From Chitinibacter sp. FCG-7 (GTDB taxonomy: Bacteria; Pseudomonadota; Gammaproteobacteria; Burkholderiales; Chitinibacteraceae): a stretch of DNA of 64,000 nucleotides. Shown here in pieces: positions 30,506 through 43,391 of the stretch. Where the stretch lies: contig NZ_CP157355.1 in assembly GCF_040047665.1 (NCBI RefSeq), positions 1,240,001 to 1,304,000 of the forward strand, written 5' to 3'. The notes under the pieces were generated by a model, which was not told the DNA's origin, did no database searches, and was given only the letters and a program-made list of their open reading frames with translations. The stretch's first letter is position 1. Every line of letters begins with the position of its first letter. A program made the translations under genes and the position numbers.

Positions 30506-31600
30506 GTGAAAACAGATCAAATTCGTCAGCTTGGCATCGGGATACTCAATCTGATTGCCGTGGCTTTGCTGGCATCAACATGGTGGCATGGCCTGATACT
30601 GGGGGCGATTATCCTGCTGCTCCTTTTAGCATTTACTCCCAGCTCAACCAAAGAAGAAGACATTGTTCGCATCGAGCACGCCCCTGTGCCCCCCATCCAC
30701 AGTGATTTACCTCCGCTGATGGTCGATGTACTACCGCTCTGGAAAAGAAATCTATCCCTCGCCCGTTCGCAAAGCCAGGAAGCCATCGACTCGCTCGCTA
30801 TGCGTTTTGGCAATATCAATCACGGGCTAAATGAAACATTGCAACTGGCATCGGGCAGCAGTGGCGGTCAGGTCATCACAACCATCCAGAAGGCCGAACA
30901 GGGTCTGGGCGGAATTGTCTCGGCGCTGGAGCAAATATTGAAGGACAGGGAAACACTGCTCAGCGAGATCGAAGGTCTGGGACAATTCAATACCGAACTC
31001 AAACAGATGGCCACGTCGGTCGCAGAAATTGCCGCACAAACCAATCTGCTCGCGCTTAATGCCGCCATTGAGGCCGCCCGCGCTGGCGAGGCCGGACGGG
31101 GGTTTGCCGTGGTCGCCGATGAAGTACGCAAACTCTCGACCCAATCGGGCGAAACCGGCAAGCACATCAGCAGCAAAGTTGAATCGATCAACGCCACCAT
31201 TCAGGGCGCATTGGCTTCGGCGCAAAGGCTGTCGCACAGCGAAGCACAAATGATAGGCAACTCCAAAACAACAATCAGCGAAGTCATTGCCGATTTTCAT
31301 CAGGTGGCAGTCGAGCTGGGCACCACCATCGAGCAGCTCACCAATGAAGGGCGCGCGGTTGAACATGAAGTGCAGGATGTGATTATCAATCTGCAATTTC
31401 AGGATCGCGTTAGCCAGATCATGGATCACATCGAACGCGATATCGAAAAACTGGCCGATCTACTGGCCCGCCAGCAGGCGCTACCCGATCGCCAGCAATG
31501 GCTGAACGAGCTGCATAAAACCTACACCACCAGCGAGCAACGCCAGGCACATACCGGGCAAAAAGCGGCAGCCACCACCACTTCAATCGACTTTTTCTAA
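30506..31600 (+). CDS. Methyl-accepting chemotaxis protein without a periplasmic domain
   Basis: The 364-residue protein begins [20 protein letters not shown] and has two closely spaced membrane segments (about 10-26 and 29-43) with almost no periplasmic loop. A coiled-coil signalling domain follows, with the hairpin tip [37 protein letters not shown]. No HAMP domain is evident, so the input is probably intramembrane, cytoplasmic, or from a partner. It ends in TSIDFF rather than the CheR/CheB-binding NWETF pentapeptide. GTG start at 30506 with AGGAGAGG upstream. First gene of the chemosensory operon. Confidence 0.92.
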
Positions 31601-31629: not shown

Positions 31630-31998
31630 ATGGCCAAGACCATTCTTATTGTTGACGATTCATTCAGCATGCGACAAACCGTCAGTATCGCGCTCAAGGG
31701 CGCGGGTTACGAGGTAGTAGAGGCCAGCGATGGCAAAGATGCACTGAGCAAACTGGATGGCCGCAAATACAATCTGATCATCTCCGATGTGAACATGCCC
31801 AATATGGATGGCATCAGCTTTGTCAAAGCAGCCAAGCTGCTGCCCAATTACAAATTCACACCCATCATCATGCTCACCACCGAAGGTGACGACAGCAAAA
31901 AACAGGAAGGCAAAGCAGCTGGCGTACGCGCCTGGGTGCTCAAGCCTTTTCAGCCCCCGGCACTGCTCGACGCGATCTCCAAGCTCATCATGGCCTAA
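31630..31998 (+). CDS. CheY-like single-domain response regulator
   Basis: The 122-residue receiver domain has Asp9/Asp10, phospho-acceptor Asp53 (LIISDVNMPNMDG), Thr83 and Lys105, all conserved. It has no output domain, so it probably relays phosphate from the CheA of this operon to a motor or to the other receivers. It lies 29 bp after the MCP gene and 62 bp before the STAS gene. Confidence 0.93.
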   Translation: MAKTILIVDDSFSMRQTVSIALKGAGYEVVEASDGKDALSKLDGRKYNLIISDVNMPNMDGISFVKAAKLLPNYKFTPIIMLTTEGDDSKKQEGKAAGVRAWVLKPFQPPALLDAISKLIMA

Positions 31999-32060: not shown

Positions 32061-32390
32061 ATGAGTACGCCATCCAGCCCGCCCCCAGAAACGGCCGCGA
32101 TTCAGGCCAATCACAGTTTGACTATTTTTGAAGCCGCAGAGCAGAAAACCGCGCTCCTTACTGCGTTATCAAATAGCAGCGAGAGCCTGGAAGTCAATCT
32201 TTCCGGTGTTGATGACATTGACAGCACCGGTATCCAGCTCTTGCTCTTTCTCAAACAGGAAGCGCAACGCCAGCAAAAAACCATGGTGTACACGCACCAC
32301 AGCCCGACAGTACTGGGCGTCATTGAATTGCTCAATCTGGCAGCTCAACTGGGCGACCCCCTACTGATGCCCCGAGGAGAAACAGCATGA
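32061..32390 (+). CDS. STAS-domain protein
   Basis: The 109-residue protein has the STAS (anti-sigma-factor antagonist) fold, with the conserved loop VDDIDSTGIQLLLFL around the Ser/Thr that can be phosphorylated in SpoIIAA-type proteins, and a C-terminal VIELLNL helix. STAS proteins occur in several chemosensory operons next to cheA, where they probably bind or tune the kinase or array; the exact role here is inference. Its TGA overlaps the cheA ATG (ATGA). Confidence 0.9.
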   Translation: MSTPSSPPPETAAIQANHSLTIFEAAEQKTALLTALSNSSESLEVNLSGVDDIDSTGIQLLLFLKQEAQRQQKTMVYTHHSPTVLGVIELLNLAAQLGDPLLMPRGETA

Positions 32391-34579
32391 ATCTGGACGC
32401 GGCTCGCGCAGCGCTGGTCGAAGAAGCGCGTGAACTCCTGGTAGCGATGGAAGACGCCTTGCTGCAAATCGAGGCTGGCACGGGAGGGCCGGACGGCATC
32501 AACGCCATTTTTCGCGCCGCACACACCATCAAAGGCTCGGCCGGCCTGTTTGCTTTTGACAATGTCGTCAGCTTTACGCATATCGTTGAAAGCGTGCTTG
32601 ATCGGGTTCGCAATGGCAAGCTGGAAATCGACGAAGCCATGCTCTCGCTGCTGCTGAAGTCGGGCGACTATATTGCGACGCTCGTCGACGCCATCGAGCG
32701 CAATACCGAACAGGAAGAGCCCAATCCGGCGCTACGCTCAAAACTGGAAGCCGAGCTTAAAAGCTACCTGGATACGCCACCCGTAGCGCAAACCGCACTG
32801 GAAGCGGCCGAGCCAGAACCTGCCGCCCAGTTCGAAATCGACGAAGGCGAGCGTGTGAGCAGCGACAACTGGCATTTGTCGCTGCGCTTTAATGAAGATG
32901 TACTGCGACAGGGACTCGACCCGCTGTCGTTTATCCGCTACCTGTGTACGCTGGGCCAGATTGTCCATTTGCACACCATCAGCGAGCAAATTCCCGACGC
33001 TGAGCATTACGATGCAGAAAGCAGCTATCTGGGTTACGAAATCGATTTTGAATCGGACGCGACCCGCAGCCAGATCGAGGGCGTCTTTGAATTTGTCCGC
33101 GAAGAAAGCCAGATCCGCATTTTGCCGCCGCACAGCAAAATTGATGAATATATCCAGCTGATCGACAGCCTGGCCGAGCCTGCCGGGCGGCTCGGCGAAA
33201 TCCTGATTCATGGCGGTGCGCTCAGTGAAAGCGAGCTGGAACGGGTGCTCAATCAGCAGCAGGAGCAAGACAGGCCACCGCCGCTCGGCACCATGCTGGT
33301 CGAACAGCAAATGGTGCCGCCCAATGTGGTTTCAGCCGCGCTGAGCAAACAAAAGCAAAGCGAAGAGAAACGCAGCCACGAGCAGAAATTTATCAAGGTT
33401 GAAGTTGGCAAACTTGATCAACTGATCGATCTGGTTGGCGAGCTGGTCATTGCCGGCGCGGGTGCCAATCTGGTTGCCAAGCAAAAATCGGTCAATGCCT
33501 TTGAAGAAGCTGCGCAATCGGTATCGGTACTGGTTGAGCAAATTCGCGACGCGGCGCTCACCTTGCGCATGGTGCCGATTGGCGAAGTATTCCAGCGTTT
33601 TCCTCGGGTGGTGCGCGAGGTGTCGCGCGATCTGGGCAAGGAAATCGAGCTGGTCATTACCGGCGCAGAGACCGAGCTGGATAAATCCATGGTCGAAAAA
33701 TTGTCCGACCCCTTGATGCATATCGTGCGCAATGCCATGGATCACGGGCTGGAATCAACCGAAGACCGCATTTTGCTGGGCAAACCTTCGTGCGGGATTA
33801 TGCGGCTGAATGCCTTTCATGATTCGGGCAGCATCGTGATTGAAGTCTCCGACGATGGTCGCGGGCTCAATCGCGAACGCATACTGGCCAAAGCCATCGA
33901 ACGTGGGCTGATTACCGCCGAGCAGCACTTGTCGGACAACGAAATCTACCGCCTGATTTTCGAGCCGGGTTTTTCTACCGCAGAAAAAGTCACCAATCTG
34001 TCGGGGCGTGGCGTCGGGATGGATGTCGTCAAAAAGAATATCGAAGCACTTCGAGGCGAAGTTGAAGTCGATAGCACGCCTGGACACGGCGCAACCATCC
34101 GTATCCGGCTGCCGCTGACACTGGCGATCATTGATGGCTTCCAGGTCATGGTCAATGGCTCGGTCTACGTGATTCCGCTGGAGATGGTGATTGAATGCGT
34201 GGACCTCGTGCATCAGGATTACCGGCACAACATCATCAAACTGCGCGGTGAACCGCTGCCCTTTATCCGTTTGCGCTCGCTATTTGGCCACCCGCCTTCA
34301 GCAGCACAGCAGAGAGAAAGTCTGGTCGTTGTTCAATACGGTTCACAAAGAGCAGGACTGGTCGTCGATCAGCTACTAGGCGAATTTCAGGCTGTCATCA
34401 AACCACTGGGGCTGTTATTTCAGCATATGAAGGGCATTGGCGGCTCCACCATTCTGGGTAACGGGCAGGTTTCGCTGATTCTGGATATTCCGCACCTGAT
34501 CCATATGACCAGCCAGCGGGAAATGCCTCCAGTGCTCGCTGCAAGCAACACCGAAGTATCAGAAAAAATCAATCATTAG
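32387..34579 (+). CDS. cheA: Chemotaxis histidine kinase CheA with an MshEN-like linker
   Basis: Kinase core of the chemosensory array, 730 residues. HPt domain 1-105 with phospho-His46 ([12 protein letters not shown]); a P2-like receiver-docking domain at about 160-248; dimerisation about 333-410; ATPase 435-580 with [20 protein letters not shown] and GRGVGMD; CheW-like domain 585-710. Between docking and dimerisation domains, residues 268-291 ([20 protein letters not shown]...) and 299-322 ([20 protein letters not shown]...) form two tandem 24-residue units matching the MshEN c-di-GMP-binding pattern; the second has lost its leading Arg and its Gly. If functional, kinase activity would be tuned by c-di-GMP. 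Confidence 0.95.
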
Positions 34580-34608
34580 AATTCAAAACATTTGTGGGGG
34601 AATTGAAC

Positions 34609-36249
34609 ATGCAATGGTTTTATCAGCTACGCCTTAATACAAAACTGGTCAGCACGTTTTTAATCGTAGCCGCACTGACCTTGATTCTGGGCGCTTACGC
34701 TTATGTGCAAATTGACAAAATAAGCGGCATGCTCAGCTCGACGTATAACGATCGCCTGATTCCGATTCGTGATCTGGGGGAAGTCAAAAGCTATCAAATT
34801 CAAAACTATCGTCGACTTTATGTGGCAGTGGCACTGAATGAAGCTGAGTCAATTGCAGACCAGAAAGAGAAAATTGCACTCGACAAGAAAAATAGTGACG
34901 AGTTATTTGCCACTTATAAAAAAACGCTACTAGCCCCCGAAGAAGCTCAACTGATTCCTGTTTTTGAGCAGCAATACAGCAAGGTCAATGCGGCTACAGA
35001 TAAAACACTGGAGCTACTGGCTGCTGGCCAACATGCCGAAGCAATCCACCTGATGCGGACAGAAACCAAGCCCCAGTTTGACCAGATGCTGGTGACACTG
35101 CAAAACCTGATCAAAATCAACACCGACGTTGCCGATCAGACCAACAAAGCCAGTGAAGCAATTACCGCCAGCATCAGCAAAACCATGATTATCATGATGT
35201 TGTGCGCTTTTGCGCTGGCCATCGTGATCGGGCTGTGGATTACCCGCCTGATTGTCAAACAGATCGGTGGCGAGCCTGCTCTGGTCGTCGATACCTTGAA
35301 AAAAATCTCCGAAGGCGATTTAACGGTGCAAATCCAGCTGCGTCCGAATGATCAAAGCAGCTTGCTATTCAATACCCAGCAAATGGTCAGCAAGCTGACC
35401 AGCGTGATGGGTGAAGTGAGCGATACGGCCAATGCTCTGGCTTCGGCGTCCGAAGAAGTTTCTGCCTCGGCGCAATCGCTAAGCCAGAACGCCTCCGAGC
35501 AAGCGGCCAGCGTGGAACAAACCAGCGCGGCAGTCGAAGAAATTTCTTCAACCGTTTCGCAAAACTCGGACAACGCCCGCGTCACCGATGGCATGGCGAG
35601 CAAATCATCCAACGATGCCGTCGAAGGTGGTGAGGCAGTCAAAGAAACTGTGGCGGCCATGCGGCAAATTGCCAAAAAAATCGGTATTGTTGACGACATC
35701 GCCTATCAGACCAATCTGCTGGCGCTCAATGCAGCGATTGAGGCTGCGCGTGCTGGCGAACACGGCAAAGGCTTTGCGGTTGTTGCCGCCGAAGTACGCA
35801 AGCTGGCCGAGCGCAGCCAGATTGCCGCACAGGAGATTTCCGAAGTGGCCAGCAGCAGCGTAACCCTGGCCGAAAGAGCAGGCACGCTGCTGGATCAAAT
35901 GGTACCGGCAATTCGCAAAACGGCCGATCTGGTGCAGGAAATCAGCGCTGCATCGCGCGAACAAACCAATGGCCTTGACCAGATCAACTCTGCCGTTGGT
36001 CAACTGGCCAATACCACGCAAATGAACGCAGCAGCCTCGGAGCAACTTTCGTCCACTTCGGAGGAAATGAGTGCGCAAGCCATCCAGCTGCAGGAAATGA
36101 TCCGCTTTTTCCGTCTGAACAATGCCGCACACAAGCGGGTATTGCCATCCAAACAGAACGTAGCTCGCAGCAGCGTTGGCGGAGGCCGGGTTTCCATGCT
36201 GGACTCTGGTCATGACGCGGTGGATGAAGCGAATTTCTCGCGCTTTTGA
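34609..36249 (+). CDS. Methyl-accepting chemotaxis protein with four-helix-bundle sensor
   Basis: The 546-residue receptor starts [20 protein letters not shown]. The first membrane helix is at about 12-32, a periplasmic four-helix-bundle ligand domain (4HB_MCP type) runs to about 185, and the second membrane helix is near 190-212. HAMP follows ([21 protein letters not shown]), then the signalling domain with tip [43 protein letters not shown]. The C-terminus (DEANFSRF) is not a standard CheR tether. GGGGGAA lies before the ATG at 34609; an in-frame GTG five codons upstream would consume it. Confidence 0.95.
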
Positions 36250-36261
36250 TTGGAGAGCATG

Positions 36262-36819
36262 ATGGGCAGCTTACTAACGCAAAGCATGGCAAGATCCACA
36301 GTCCGTGCAGAAGAAACACCGCAGGGCAAACAATTTCTGACCTTGACGCTGGGTGGTGAAATATTTGCCATCCCGATCGAGAATATTCGCGAAATCATCG
36401 AGTTTTCCGGCCTGACCGAAATCCCGCTGATGCCTGATTTTCTGCGCGGCGTGATTAATTTGCGCGGCTCGGTCGTGCCGGTGATTGATCTGGCTGCGCG
36501 CTTTGGCCGCAGCAATACACAGATTTCTCGCCGTACCTGCATCGTCATTCTGGAAGTCAGTCAGGAAGAAAACGTACTGGCGCTAGGAGTCATGGTGGAT
36601 GCAGTCAATGAAGTGCTGAGTATCGAGCCCAGCCAGATCGAACCTGCGCCCAATTTTGGCGCGCAGATTCGCGCCGATTTTATTGATGGCATGATCAGTC
36701 TGGGTGAGCGCTTTGTAATTGCGCTCGATATCCAGCGTGTGCTGGCTGTTGACGAAATGTCCAGCCTGATTGGATTGGCGGGCAGCTCGTCGCCTGACAA
36801 TGCGGTGACTGCTACATGA
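36262..36819 (+). CDS. cheW: Chemotaxis coupling protein CheW
   Basis: Adaptor joining receptors to CheA. The 185-residue SH3-like protein has FLTLTLGGEIFAIPIENIRE and the hallmark LRGVINLRGSVVPVIDL. Two adjacent ATG codons (36259, 36262) follow GGAGAG; the second has better spacing. The stop overlaps the cheR start (ATGA). The N-terminal 25 residues before the fold are longer than in E. coli CheW. Confidence 0.94.
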   Translation: MGSLLTQSMARSTVRAEETPQGKQFLTLTLGGEIFAIPIENIREIIEFSGLTEIPLMPDFLRGVINLRGSVVPVIDLAARFGRSNTQISRRTCIVILEVSQEENVLALGVMVDAVNEVLSIEPSQIEPAPNFGAQIRADFIDGMISLGERFVIALDIQRVLAVDEMSSLIGLAGSSSPDNAVTAT

Positions 36820-37685
36820 TTTTAAGCCCGATGAAAACAACGCGCCAAACCGCCAAAGTAGCAACAAGTCAGCAAACCCTTGACGTAAGCGATGCTGAAA
36901 TGGCGCTTTTTCGTGATTTTTTCCAGCAAAAAATCGGTATCTATCTCAGTAGCAGCAAAAAGTCATTGCTCACCAGCAGGCTGGCATCGCGGGTTCACGA
37001 ATTGGCGTTACCCAGCCTGCGCGCTTACCACGAATTTCTGCTCAGCCCAGGTCAAGAGGCCGAGCAGCAAAGAGCGATTGATCTGATCACCACCAATGAA
37101 ACTTACTTTTTTCGCGAAGAGGAGCATTTTAGGTATCTGGCCCAGCATATTCTGCCGCGCAAAGCCGCCCAGAACGATTTTCGGATCTGGTCTGCCGCCA
37201 GCTCGACAGGCGAAGAGGCCTACTCGATTGCCATGCTGCTTCACGCACAGCGCAATCCGCAGCCGTGGCATATCGAGGCTTCCGACATCAGCACCCGTGT
37301 TCTGGCTTACGCCAAACGCGGGCTTTACCCTTTGCACCGGGGACAAAAAATCCCGCCGGATTACCTGAAAAACTATTGTCTGCGTGGCAGTGATGCCTAC
37401 GAAGGGCATCTGCTGGTCCAGCAAGCGGTGCGGGATAGCGTGCATTTTTCGCAAAAAAACCTGCTCAACTTGCCCAAAAGCACGGGTTTGTTTGATGTCA
37501 TTTTCCTGCGCAACGTACTGATCTACTTTGACCCGCCCACCAAGGCACAGGTTATCCAGAATGTTTGTCGGCATCTGAAACCCGGCGGCTGGCTGTTGAT
37601 CGGCCATGCGGAAACGCTCAATGGTCTGGATGGCAATCTGCAGCTCAAGGCATGCGGCCCTTCCATCTATCAGATCGGGCCATGA
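36816..37685 (+). CDS. cheR: Chemoreceptor methyltransferase CheR
   Basis: Uses S-adenosylmethionine to methylate receptor glutamates. The 289-residue protein has the N-terminal helical domain (LFRDFFQQKIGIYLSSSKK), TNETYFFRE, the AdoMet-binding ASSTGEEAYSIAMLL, DVIFLRNVLIYFD and LKPGGWLLIGHAETL. Start and stop both overlap neighbours as ATGA, so cheW-cheR-cheD are translationally coupled. Confidence 0.96.
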   Translation: MILSPMKTTRQTAKVATSQQTLDVSDAEMALFRDFFQQKIGIYLSSSKKSLLTSRLASRVHELALPSLRAYHEFLLSPGQEAEQQRAIDLITTNETYFFREEEHFRYLAQHILPRKAAQNDFRIWSAASSTGEEAYSIAMLLHAQRNPQPWHIEASDISTRVLAYAKRGLYPLHRGQKIPPDYLKNYCLRGSDAYEGHLLVQQAVRDSVHFSQKNLLNLPKSTGLFDVIFLRNVLIYFDPPTKAQVIQNVCRHLKPGGWLLIGHAETLNGLDGNLQLKACGPSIYQIGP

Positions 37686-38191
37686 GCGCGCGTCGACTGA
37701 TTTTGAATGTGGGCGACTGGTATCTGGGTCGGGAGTATGACTTTATTGAAACGCTGCTCGGTTCTTGCGTTGCCGTCACGTTCTGGCACCCGCAAGCACG
37801 ACTGGGCGGCATGTGCCACTACCTGCTGCCCCGCCGCCCAAAGGAGCACAGCGGACAGCTTGCAGATACCAGGTACGGCGATGAAACTCTGCAACTGATG
37901 CTAAAACGGATCAAAGCGCTGGGTTTTCATTGGCCCGATTTTGAAATCGGGCTCTACGGTGGTGGCCGCATTTTCCCGGCCGAACCGGCGACAGAATCGA
38001 TAGGACGGCAGAACACGCAATTTGCGCTGGATTACTTCAAGCAACTCAAGCTGGGTATTGCCCGCAAAGACATTAATGGCAAAGGCTACAGGTATATACG
38101 TCTGAATGTATACAAGGGAACGATAGACATGCTGCGCGACAAGAAATTACTGGGCTCAAGCCATGCAGCCGCCAAAGAGTCAGAACAATGA
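37682..38191 (+). CDS. cheD: Chemoreceptor glutamine deamidase CheD
   Basis: Converts receptor glutamines to glutamates and in some species tunes CheC or CheA. The 169-residue protein has the catalytic triad with normal spacing: Thr24, Cys29 (LLGSCVAV) and His46 (GGMCHYLLP), plus [11 protein letters not shown]. coli lacks CheD, so this is a more complete adaptation system. Starts at the ATGA overlap with cheR. Confidence 0.95.
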
Positions 38192-38270
38192 AACCGCATT
38201 TACGCAGCCTAGGCCTGCTCGCCAGCGCTCAGCACAACAAAAAAACCATCGCCCGCAAAGAGGCACAGAC

Positions 38271-39356
38271 ATGACCATCAAAGTAATGATCGTAGACGAC
38301 TCATCGGTGGTGCGTCAGGTCATGCAGGACTTGTTGCTCAAGCATCGCGATATTGAAGTGATCGGCACGGCGCCCGACCCGATTTTTGCCATGAGCAAAA
38401 TGCAGAACCAGTGGCCCGACGTCATCTTGCTGGATATTGAAATGCCCAGGATGGACGGTATTACCTTTTTAAAACAGATCATGAGTACACGGCCAACACC
38501 GGTGGTAATTTGCTCAACGCTAACAGAACGCGGAGCCGACATTACCATTGAGGCAATGGCCGCTGGCGCGATCAGCATCATTACCAAGCCCACACTGGGC
38601 TTGCGCGATTTTCTGCAGGAAAGCGCCAATCAGCTCACCTCGGCCATTCGCGAAGCAGCAATGGCCAAAGTAGGCATTGCACGCGCTCGCCCCAGCACCA
38701 GCGCAATCAGCCAGGAAAGAATGAACGCCCCCAAGCTGACCGCCGACGCGATTATGGACGCGCCAGTGAACAGCCAGCATCTACCCACCACCGAGAAAAT
38801 TATCGCCCTGGGCACGTCAACCGGCGGCACGCAAGCGCTAGAGCAAGTTCTTACCGCTCTGCCCGCCACCTGCCCGGGCTTGGTTATCGTTCAGCATATG
38901 CCGGAAAAATTCACGCAAAGCTTTGCCAATCGCCTCAACAACCTGTGTGCGATTGAAGTATTTGAAGCCAAAAACAACGACCGGATTGTGCCTGGCCGTG
39001 CTCTGATCGCCCCCGGCGGCAAGCATATGCTGGTCAAGCGCAGCGGCGCGCAGTATTACGTTGAGGTCATTGATGGCCCACTGGTATCGCGTCATCGCCC
39101 ATCGGTCGATGTGCTGTTTCGCTCAGTAGCCAAAAACGCAGGTAAAAATGCCATCGGCATCATCATGACCGGCATGGGCGACGACGGCGCGCGCGGCATC
39201 AAGGAAATGCACGACACCGGCGCAGTCACGTATGCGCAGGACGAAGCCAGCTGCGTGGTATTTGGTATGCCCAAAGAAGCCATTGCGCTGGGCGGCATCA
39301 AGCAAATCGTCAGCCTAGACAAAATTTCACAGGTTATTGAGCAATATGGCCGCTAA
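38271..39356 (+). CDS. cheB: Chemotaxis methylesterase CheB
   Basis: Receiver-controlled esterase that removes receptor methyl groups. The 361-residue protein has a receiver domain with Asp55 as phosphate acceptor, a linker of about 45 residues, and the esterase domain with Ser183 (LGTSTGG), His209 (VQHMPEKF) and Asp305 ([11 protein letters not shown]), spaced exactly as in E. coli CheB. The open frame upstream of 38271 runs through cheD and is not used. Confidence 0.96.
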
Positions 39357-40602
39357 TACCGAGTTGTCGAACAAAAGCATTCTGATCGTCGACGATAGCC
39401 CGCTGCAACGCAGCTTTGCCGTCGAAATGTGCGAGAAGCTGGGTATTCGTTTGATTTTTCAGGCGGGCAACGGCCTTGAGGCACTAGAGCTACTGGCACT
39501 GCTGAAAAAGCAACCCGACATCATGATGGTCGATCTGGAAATGCCGGATATGGATGGCGTCGAACTGATCCAGAAATTGCAGGAATTGCATTACCAGATT
39601 CCGCTGATTATCGCGTCAAGCCGCGAAGAAAGTCTGATCAGCAGCGTCAGCACCATGATTACCACATTGGGGCAACCCTTGCTTGGCAGTCTGCGAAAAC
39701 CAATCAACCCGGCACAATTGCTCGCCAGCTTGAATGGTTTAAGCCAGCTGCAACGGCAACCGCATCACAAGCATTCGCCGATCACCGCGCAGCTTCGGCA
39801 GGAAGACCTGATCGAAGCCATTGCACATGGCCAGATTGTTCCTTTTTTTCAACCCAAAGTCGATGTTGCAACAGGGCTGATCAAAGGTGTCGAAGCGCTC
39901 GCGCGCTGGCAGCACCCCGAGCTGGGTCTGATTGCACCGGACTTTTTCATTCCGCTGGCAGAAAAGTCCGATCACATCATCCGCCTGCTTACGCTAGCGA
40001 TTGCCGAACAAACCATCCGGCAATGCGCAGCGTGGAATCAGCGCAGCCTGCATTTAAGCTACGCCATCAATCTGTCGCCGCGCCTGCTCAGCTCGATCAA
40101 TTTTTTCCAGGAAATCACCAAAATCCCGGCGCTGCATGGGATATCGAACGAACAGATTACCTGGGAAGTCACCGAAAGTTCGGTCGTCAATAATCTCGCC
40201 GCTGCATTGGGCACATTGGCCAGACTCAGGCTAAAAGGCTTTGGCCTGTCGATTGACGACTACGGCACGGGTTTTTCATCCATGCAGCAACTGGCACGCA
40301 TCCCGTTTACCGAGCTCAAAATTGACCGCTCGTTTGTCAACGGCGCTTGCCAGCAGCAAAACCTGTCGATCATTTTGCAATCGGCCATCGACATGGCGAA
40401 CCGGCTGGGCATGTCGACCGTCGCTGAAGGCGTTGAAACGCAGCAAGACTGGCGTTTATTACAACAATTTGGCTGCGAAATTGCCCAAGGTTACTTTATT
40501 GCCAAACCCATGCCGGCAGCCGAATTGTTTACCTGGCTCAAAGGGCACAATCAACGCCTCTCGGAGTTGAGAGCACCAAGCCATGTCGGCAAACCCGCCT
40601 AG
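39346..40602 (+). CDS. Response regulator with EAL c-di-GMP phosphodiesterase domain
   Basis: 418 residues: receiver domain (phospho-Asp63 in [12 protein letters not shown]) followed by an EAL domain from about 150. Motifs needed for c-di-GMP hydrolysis are present: [15 protein letters not shown] (EAL at 183-185), [25 protein letters not shown] and LKIDRSF, so the enzyme is probably active. ATG at 39346 overlaps cheB by 11 bp. As part of a chemosensory operon it is a likely phosphorylation target of CheA or the downstream hybrid kinase, linking environmental sensing to c-di-GMP turnover. The layout resembles VieA without its DNA-binding domain. Confidence 0.93.
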
Positions 40603-40613
40603 CCAGGCCTGCC

Positions 40614-43391
40614 ATGTTGCGAAAAGCGGCAAAAAACAGCAATCTGGAGCTCATCATCATCACGATCCTGGTGGTGAGCGCAGTCTTGTCAGCCACCGGG
40701 TTTTATAACTACACCCAGAAAAAAACCGCACTGCTCAATGAAAGAGCGATTGCCAGCAACAGCATCCTGAATCGCCTGTCCATCTCCCTGCCTAGCGCGA
40801 TCTGGGGTTTTGACGAAAAAACTGCACGTGGCATTACGCTATCGGAAATGGACAACCATTTTGTCGATTCAATCGCCATCGATACCGATTCATTCAAGAT
40901 GATAGAGCTGACCCGTAGCGCCGACGGCAAGATCCGGGATGGCTTCGGGCACATCGGCGCAGCCAAGCAGCTCAAGACATTTGAAATCACCTCTACGGCT
41001 TACGGCACGATAGGCACGATCCGCTTACTGATCAATAACGCCGACATTGAGCAAAAGCTGGGTGAAGAAGCCAAATTTGTTATCGTGCAAATGCTGGCGC
41101 TCAATCTGCTGCTGATTTTCTTTTTGGGTATTGCCTACTATTTTCGCCGCAACAGCCAATTGGCTGAAGACGCCAATCAGGCCAAAAGCGCCTTTCTGGC
41201 CAATATGAGCCATGAAATCCGCACCCCGATGAATGCCATTATCGGTTTGGCCAATCTGGCATTACGCAGCGATTTAAGCCCGCAGCAGCGCGACTATCTG
41301 CAAAAAATCCATTCAGCTGGCCTCTCCTTGCTCGGCCTGCTCAATGACGTGCTCGATTTATCCAAAATCGAAGCCGGTAAAATGCCGATCGAGAATATCA
41401 GTTTTAATCTGGACGACGTGATGGCTCACGTCGCAACGATGACGCAAAACAAGGCCAACGAAAAAAATCTGGAATACCTGTTACAGATTCAGGCCGACGT
41501 GCCAACGACCTTATATGGAGACCCAACCCGTTTGGGGCAGGTACTGATCAATCTGGTCAGTAACGCCATTAAATTTACCGAGCAAGGCGAAGTTCACATT
41601 AGCTGCAGCGCCCGCTTTCCCGCCCCCAATCAGGTCAAACTGCGGTTTACTGTCCGTGATACCGGCGTTGGCATGAGTACCGAGCAATGCGCCAGACTAT
41701 TCAGACCGTTTAGCCAGGCCGATGAATCAACAACCCGCCGTTTTGGTGGCACAGGGCTGGGTTTATCGATTTGCAAGCGACTGGTAGAACTGATGGGCGG
41801 CGATATCTGGGTCGAGAGCCATCCCGGACAAGGTTCAACCTTCAGCTTTGACTGCACTTTTGGCGTTGCCGAGCAACAGACGTCCATCCTCGGCTTACCC
41901 GGTAATCTGGATGGCATGCGTATTCTGGTGGTTGACGACAATGCCGCAGCCCGCGAAATTTTGTCCACCGCACTGCGCGCCTACTCCTGCCGCGTTGATA
42001 CGGTGGCTTCAGCCTGCGAAGCGCTGGCGGCCATCAAGATGGCCGAACAGACAGCGCCGTATTCGCTGGTTTTTACCGACTGGATCATGCCGCAAATGGA
42101 TGGTATTGAATTGATCAGGCAGATCAAATCAGGGTTTGGCGCAGCGCCAAAAACGGTACTGGTCACCGCTTACGATACCAGCACCATGCACAATAGCGTC
42201 GATCAGGCCGATGCCATTTTGCCCAAACCGGTGAACCCGTCTGCACTATTCAATACGCTGCTCAGCCTGCTACACACGCCAAACCAGCCTGCCCCGCCTA
42301 TTAGCGAGCAGCTACCCAATCTGTCTGGCGCGCATATCCTGCTGGTAGAAGACAACGACATCAACCGGCAAATCGCCACCGAATTGCTGCAGGCCAGCAG
42401 AGCTCAAGTCAGCATTGCCCACCATGGACAAGAAGCGCTAGATAAAATCCGTACCGCTGCACCAGATTATTACAGTCTGGTGCTGATGGATTTGCAGATG
42501 CCGGTTATGGACGGGCATCAGGCCAGCCAGCTGATACGGCAGGATCACGCCTACGATCATTTGCCGATTATTGCGATGACCGCGCATGCCTTTGCCGACG
42601 AAAAAGAGCGCTGCCTCAAAGAGGGCATGAATGATCATCTGTCCAAACCCATAGACCCCGAGCGCATGTTCCGGGTACTACAGCAATGGCTCAAGTTCTC
42701 GCCGTCCCAGCACCAGCCCGGCCTGCAGCTCGAGGCAGCGCCAGCATGGCTCAATCGCTTAACCCAGCTCGATACCGAGCGGGCGCTGGAGCGTGTCGCG
42801 GCTAATCACGGGCTGTATCTGGATTTGCTGCAGCGCTTTGCACGCACCCAGCTCAATAGCGCCGCCGAGATACGCCAAGCCTTGGCCAGCCACGACACAT
42901 CATCTGCCTTGCGCCTGGCACATACCCTGAAAGGCGTGGCTGGCAATATTGGTGCCGGGCACGTCCAGAAACAAGCGCAGCGGATCGAGGAGCGCTTGCG
43001 CCAGCATGGTACAGAGACCCGACTCGAGGCTGATCTGGAAGCCGAACTGGAATCTTTTCTAGAAGCCGAACTGGCAGAGCTGGAGGCACGACTTGGCGCA
43101 CTGGCTCAAGACATGCTTGGCCTGCCAGCCAACGAAGCATTGCAATGGGATCACCGCACGGAGGAAGAGACCATCGGCATTTTGCAGCAGCTTGCAAGCA
43201 TGCTGGAGCGGCAAGACGGCGAATCGGGCGATTACTTCAGATCAATCGAAGCCAGGCTGGGGCTGTTATCAGCCGACACAGTGGCCCAAATACATCACTA
43301 TATTGAACAATACCAATTTAAAGCCGCGCTGACGCTCGTTATTAGTGCGCAGGACAACCTCTCTAATTACGATGGAAAGGCACAAGAATGA
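40614..43391 (+). CDS. Hybrid sensor histidine kinase
   Basis: 925 residues in the order: membrane helix (about 12-31), periplasmic sensor of about 120 residues, membrane helix (about 156-177), HisKA (His200 in SHEIRTPMN), HATPase ([27 protein letters not shown]), receiver 1 (Asp489), receiver 2 (Asp626), HPt (His770 in [14 protein letters not shown]) and a C-terminal helical tail (about 853-912). A Glu/Leu-rich segment with an internal duplication ([19 protein letters not shown]) follows the HPt. This is a complete phosphorelay in one chain. Its tail resembles that of the next protein. Stop and next start overlap (ATGA). Confidence 0.95.

Follow-up and report, generated by a model that had tools for sequence, protein, structure and literature searches.

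Can a chemotaxis kinase read the second messenger cyclic di-GMP (c-di-GMP) by itself? This question is raised by the cheA gene (32387-34579, forward strand) in a 64,000-nucleotide stretch of Chitinibacter sp. FCG-7, a member of Neisseriales (the window: contig NZ_CP157355.1, positions 1,240,001 to 1,304,000; coordinates below are counted from its first nucleotide, and all features lie on its forward strand). Known links between c-di-GMP and chemotaxis run through PilZ adaptors, with MapZ acting on receptor methylation and YcgR at the motor, or through a phosphodiesterase controlled by CheA. The linker between P2 and P3 of this CheA carries an MshEN-type domain (residues 268-322, 33188..33352), as judged from a profile match, sequence alignment, the fold predicted for it and the retention of ligand-contacting residues. 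Since the domain is real and the residues that contact the ligand in its relatives are largely kept, this CheA probably senses c-di-GMP directly; if so, c-di-GMP could set the gain or the state of an entire chemosensory array through the kinase.

The MshEN-type domain of the CheA linker

The product of cheA, an open reading frame (ORF) of 730 residues, has the canonical order of CheA domains, and all four exceed their Pfam cut-offs: Hpt (residues 8-102), the P3 dimerization domain H-kinase_dim (PF02895; residues 334-391, 33386..33559), HATPase (residues 441-578) and CheW-like (residues 584-706); the Pfam scan gave no P2-domain profile match in the protein. In a PDB sequence search the solved CheA structure 6s1k aligned with this product (E 2.1e-115), and the closest protein among the matches listed, from Chitinibacter sp. 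GC72, is 98% identical.

Working from the sequence alone, an earlier note on this DNA had described two tandem 24-residue motifs ahead of H-kinase_dim, and both were recovered at residues 268-291 and 299-322. The profile search and the structure prediction that it had proposed led to the same domain. With hmmscan, the NCBIfam model NF053729 ('c-di-GMP_motif') covers CheA residues 268-322 over its whole length (profile positions 1-53 of 53; E 1.4e-10; 40.8 bits, cut-off 38), and every one of the 52 homologous linkers of an alignment designated A1, own included, matches it at E<=0.001. DUF4388 matches 18 of these 52 linkers at E<=0.01 (best 2.3e-5), and the NCBIfam NfrB model gives a weak match to the linker, far below its cut-off. 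Among solved structures, the linker is matched best in sequence by Thermus thermophilus PilF (6f8l, E 5.5e-8) and Vibrio cholerae MshE (5htl, E 0.0015). Moreover, its AlphaFold model is a four-helix bundle (predicted local distance difference test, pLDDT, 86.6) whose top ten PDB matches in Foldseek are the N-domains of PilF, MshE and PilB, and VIA matches support the same fold.

Two results give no help to this assignment: the linker has no Pfam match above cut-off, and when the own genome was searched in six frames with NF053729, an MshE/PilB-type ATPase was the sole match and this CheA was missing, yet the CheA protein passes in hmmscan. Both speak for the reading that the motif pair arose by coincidence in a linker that is disordered or repetitive. 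Nonetheless, the E-value of 1.4e-10 over the full profile, the presence of both motifs in 105 of 123 CheAs (see below) and the confident four-helix model make such a coincidence extremely improbable. The ATPase of the same genome, named by sequence (L001), separates its motifs by 5 residues, starts both of them with Leu and ends motif II with Lys in place of Gln.

The pairing of MshEN with CheA is not new: Wang et al. (2016; PMC5013675) had already pointed it out, and in excerpts of their paper a database search associates MshEN with 'chemotaxis protein kinase CheA'; the architecture of that class is the same, and its function is given there only as 'potential involvement of c-di-GMP'. Known since 2016, the pairing gains in the Chitinibacter CheA a member with a divergent motif II. 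According to excerpts of PMC8669469, MshEN is seemingly involved in chemotaxis, most such proteins being uncharacterized, and Escherichia coli NfrB provides a likeness in which MshEN allosterically switches an enzyme unrelated to CheA in response to c-di-GMP; unlike the CheA domain, that of NfrB is C-terminal and sits on a glycosyltransferase. No experimental study of an MshEN-bearing CheA was found in searches of an open-licence library, most hits being judged by their listing, and the excerpts of PMC10333796, PMC10519070, PMC12564702, PMC10212136, PMC7288161, PMC12943098 and PMC5812497 do not describe a c-di-GMP-binding CheA.

Motif residues and the candidate ligand site

Motif I (residues 268-291, 33188..33259) has consensus residues throughout (Arg268, Leu269, Gly270, Gly277, Leu284, Leu288 and Gln291). 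It is followed by a spacer of 7 residues (292-298, 33260..33280) and by motif II (residues 299-322, 33281..33352), which keeps Leu300, Gly301, Leu319 and Gln322 and has Pro299 for Arg, Gln308 for Gly and Val315 for Leu. Motif I matches the relaxed published pattern, and motif II does so only if Gly, Ala or Ser at position 10 is not required. The earlier note had rightly reported that motif II has lost the Arg and one Gly; the Val at the position of MshE Leu54 is a further change.

In the MshEN_N domain of V. cholerae MshE (5HTL), as given in excerpts of PMC5013675, polar contacts are made by Gly11 and Gly40, the residue after each, and Gln32 and Gln61, base stacking by Arg9 and by Leu at 10, 25, 29, 39, 54 and 58, and turns by Gly18 and Gly47; G11L and G40I lose ligand stabilization, hydrophobic changes cost more than 10-fold, and changes of Arg9 or Gln32 cost at most 5-fold. 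All four hydrogen-bonding positions (MshE 11, 32, 40 and 61) are kept in CheA as Gly270, Gln291, Gly301 and Gln322, and hydrophobic residues occupy all six hydrophobic contact positions (Leu269, Leu284, Leu288, Leu300, Val315 instead of Leu, and Leu319). At the motif starts, where Arg, or Lys or Leu in the extended consensus of PMC11731258, is expected, CheA has Arg268 and Pro299; at the turns it has Gly277 and Gln308. With Pro299, Gln308 and its longer spacer, the domain falls outside the strict binding consensus of Wang et al. (2016). CheA resembles MshE in having a pair of 24-residue motifs, a four-helix bundle, the Gly and Gln positions and a canonical motif I, and differs from it in the spacer (7 residues vs the 5 of MshE and of the strict consensus), in Pro for Arg38, Gln for Gly47 and Val for Leu54, and in that the CheA domain lies inside a kinase and is followed by P3, whereas that of MshE stands at the N-terminus of an ATPase and is followed by MshEN_C.

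A closer likeness is the GSPII-C domain of T. thermophilus PilF (PMC11731258). Because CheA 266-325 aligns without gaps with PilF 302-361, over 60 residues, the 7-residue spacer, the Pro of motif II and the Val at the Leu54 position are seen to be common to CheA and to a domain that binds. Excerpts of the same paper report that PilF binds two c-di-GMP, that the weaker dissociation constant belongs to GSPII-C (324 nM in the full-length protein, 460 nM in construct 1-482), and that Pro335 is its sole departure from consensus. Unlike CheA, GSPII-C has Gly at the Gln308 position and a third motif, and its binding is known at the level of the domain. The earlier note had warned that binding could be weak or lost. 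As far as the Arg is concerned, the warning has lost force, because the binder GSPII-C also has Pro and Arg9 changes in MshE cost no more than 5-fold; by analogy, the loss of Arg in motif II need not abolish binding. As far as the Gly is concerned, it holds, with Gln308 keeping the worry alive.

In the mechanism that we propose, one c-di-GMP per CheA protomer would be held between the two 24-residue motifs and would clamp the four-helix bundle. The clamp would then act through the long last helix on P3, so that the dimerization core would be rearranged together with the P1 (substrate) and P4 (kinase) domains, and the cellular c-di-GMP level would tune kinase output in a single array, the genome having four CheA-type kinases. 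What the analysis shows is an MshEN-type domain that adjoins P3, is predicted to have the expected fold and keeps the hydrogen-bonding residues, with receivers and a REC-EAL gene nearby; the binding, the allosteric effect and its route are what we infer. The last helix spans residues 53-74 in the 75-residue model, and 53-73 followed by 81-108 in a longer, weaker model (CheA 260-402); it continues towards P3 as a predicted, charged helical connector (residues 323-333, 33353..33385). Since the predicted template modeling score (pTM) of the longer model is 0.38, the placement of MshEN against P3 was not read from it. The count of four kinases corresponds to four H-kinase_dim matches in the genome; in two of the other three, a combined MshEN-P3 profile is matched only from position 51 or 63 of its 144, so that most of the MshEN part is missing.

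Conservation and history in the CheA lineage

The conservation survey suggested by the earlier note was carried out on 123 full-length CheAs (the best 120 of 8000 scored, own included, plus three from a region search), aligned with MAFFT in a motif-blind manner. The region search, with residues 250-335, yielded 10 CheAs from 166 candidates, probably because few exact words are common. Both motifs are present, with at least 22 of the 24 positions filled, in 105 of the 123 proteins, and Gly270, Gln291, Gly301 and Gln322 are all intact in 101 of these 105, so that the ligand-contact residues proved to be widely kept. After dereplication to 44 rows, each of these four residues is found in 42, Pro299 in 27 and Gln308 in 26. 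Motif II is broken in the remaining 18 proteins, and in 17 of them motif I has lost its Gly or Gln as well (both persist in P0096); the 18 include four named Silvimonas and one Herbaspirillum, and the CheA of Silvimonas sp. JCM 19000 (P0099) keeps both motifs.

A wider set of 201 CheA rows joins, with overlap, the 123 proteins and 78 loci (80 were kept of 583, and 78 used). The motif pair was found in 158 of these rows, or 73 after dereplication, two of which (P0086 and P0096) are mis-paired. Because the motif-pair finder rewards Gly and Gln, counts from the 73 rows and from A1 are partly circular; the 123-protein alignment is free of such selection. Spacer lengths in the pair set range from 1 (14 rows) to 22, with 30 rows at 7-8, and the two mis-paired rows stand at a length of 30. 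In A1, whose linkers reach down to 19% identity with the own one, Gly11, Leu14, Gly42 and Gln63 (fragment numbering) are invariant and Gln32 is kept in at least 90%. Some homologues, L024 for one, carry Gly where this CheA has Gln308. A single-residue spacer between two MshEN motifs, several of them near-canonical, occurs in loci L053-L058, L060-L067, L069 and L073 (mostly labelled Nitrospirota or Myxococcota, with one Treponema).

Two positions that do not contact the ligand in MshE are conserved as well: Glu283 (33233-33235) in 44 of 44 rows, and Lys321 (33347-33349) as Lys in 38 and Arg in 5 of 44. Possibly they form a CheA-specific interface, which is compatible with both binding and non-binding readings of the domain.

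In this context, an MshEN fold that has given up nucleotide binding and acts as a spacer in the structure or as a protein-docking module, like the N-domains of non-binding GspE or PilB, has to be weighed, and several observations speak for it and against ligand sensing. In the partly circular sample of 73 rows, motif II is divergent across the lineage (Pro for Arg in 33, Gly47 kept in 20); XpsE, a homologue cited in this literature, has lost binding; the fold matches of the linker model include N-domains of Xanthomonas citri PilB bound to PilZ; and Glu283 and Lys321 could mark a docking surface. Gln308 in the place of the turn Gly is a departure lacking a tested parallel in the compared MshEN domains and a real uncertainty. 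Furthermore, excerpts of PMC12002112 report that in GSPII-A Ser for Arg together with Ala for the third-position Gly abolishes binding, the Gly-to-Ala step costing about 10-fold and a change of Leu to Ile at two positions 2.4-fold. However, it is hard to see why a spacer or docking module would require Gln at the two ligand-phosphate positions, whereas nearly all dereplicated rows retain Gln291, and equally many Gln322, and the cited non-binders have lost such positions (G40L and Q61V, among others, in XpsE; H33 and R62 in PilF GSPII-A). On balance, a domain that only spaces or docks appears rather unlikely, and we consider it fairly probable that the CheA linker binds c-di-GMP with some regulatory effect.

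Loci with an MshEN-bearing CheA carry the labels Pseudomonadota, Nitrospirota, Spirochaetota and Myxococcota; those of Myxococcota come from metagenome-assembled genomes titled Deltaproteobacteria. Among 43 genomes of the family, own included, the MshEN-P3 profile scored above 150 bits, starting at positions 2-6, in 22; four more gave 95-105 bits with starts at positions 7-14, and L091, the one inspected, is decayed; the best matches of the other 17 stayed below 90 bits and began no earlier than position 55. The strong match is present in 2 of the 6 genomes of the genus, and in the class 10 of 143 evenly drawn genomes, own included, reach at least 138 bits with starts at positions 2-6. CheAs without the domain in three genomes of the same genus (L086-L088) are 47-48% identical to this one and may or may not be its orthologues. 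One genome of the family (G016) holds two MshEN-CheA copies (L093 and L094), each about 71% identical to the Chitinibacter CheA.

On a tree built from 79 CheA core sequences after removal of the linker (MshEN present in 55 of the CheAs and absent from 24), the distribution takes 10 changes, at least 5 of which are forced by starred branches, compared with 20.9 in shuffles; this tree was made by a quick method, with the Shimodaira-Hasegawa-like approximate likelihood ratio test (SH-aLRT) only, several long branches and a midpoint root. MshEN occurs on both sides of that root, a pattern in keeping with an early origin and repeated loss; the domain was probably present early in this CheA lineage and lost many times, the direction being what we infer. 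Silvimonas terrae and two Herbaspirillum loci (L007, L008 and L009) keep the gene order and the EAL gene, their linker being broken with remnants of motif I, and the linker of L091 is broken in the same way; these four are natural loss controls. That the whole lineage has an MshEN clamp as its P2-P3 connector, so that c-di-GMP would act allosterically on CheA itself as a direct ligand, ahead of all the response regulators in the array, is a generalization that we hold tentatively, at slightly less than an even chance.

Gene neighborhood and the REC-EAL gene

The earlier note had also proposed a feedback loop between CheA and a receiver-EAL (REC-EAL) protein, correctly located as the third gene after cheR (39337..40602, with a TTG start at 39337 and an internal ATG at 39346). 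The product is a candidate c-di-GMP phosphodiesterase that shares the REC-EAL architecture of Pseudomonas aeruginosa RocR (3SY8) and aligns with it over residues 12-403 (E 1.3e-56), with the columns E, N, E, DD, K and E aligned and the EAL motif kept. In Pfam its EAL domain scores 225.9 bits (cut-off 31.3). We take the aligned columns to be the catalytic residues. The gene for RocR itself is not known to lie in a comparable che operon. A related arrangement is the coupling of P. aeruginosa CheA to the c-di-GMP phosphodiesterase Pch; there, CheA controls Pch, and the excerpts of PMC10212136 describe no c-di-GMP-binding domain in that CheA.

If phosphorylation by CheA activates the REC-EAL protein, activation of CheA by c-di-GMP would produce negative feedback. 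A dedicated loop of this kind, as a special case of ligand sensing by CheA, would suit a RocR-like neighbor that stands third after cheR, keeps the EAL, DD, K and E columns and has a receiver that CheA could phosphorylate. However, in those 60 of the 78 loci whose sequence continues for 8 kb or more on the right-hand side of cheA, a same-strand EAL gene lies downstream of cheA in 10 of 41 loci with MshEN vs 8 of 19 without it (Fisher p 0.23, in a test that ignores the kinship of loci), a direction opposite to the claim. Loci of Silvimonas, Herbaspirillum and Formivibrio (L007, L008, L009 and L052) have the EAL gene and not the domain, those of Methylomonas (L033-L035, L038, L040 and L041, with L035 from Methylomonas sp. 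LW13) show the reverse, the domain being present and an EAL match absent from the locus, and the c-di-GMP pool is fed by many other enzymes. Because the EAL gene does not track MshEN across loci, a specific loop between CheA and REC-EAL is not supported, contrary to the proposal, and we regard it as improbable. Co-occurrence of MshEN and EAL was rejected as support for it. The neighboring REC-EAL is a plausible output of the array and not evidence for the sensing domain.

The other genes around cheA share its strand. Upstream lie genes for a protein with an MCP signal domain (30506..31600, PF00015), a CheY-type single receiver (31630..31998, PF00072) and a STAS-domain protein (32061..32390, PF13466). 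Downstream follow a chemoreceptor with 4HB_MCP_1 and MCPsignal profile matches (34594..36249), cheW (36250..36819, PF01584), cheR (36816..37685, PF01739), cheD (37565..38191, PF03975; longest ORF, the true start probably lying later) and cheB (38163..39356, longest ORF; PF01339, PF00072 and NF001965). Beyond REC-EAL there is a hybrid histidine kinase with profile matches to HisKA, HATPase, two receivers and Hpt (40614..43391). The STAS-domain gene overlaps the start of cheA by 4 bases and occupies the same place in many MshEN-CheA loci.
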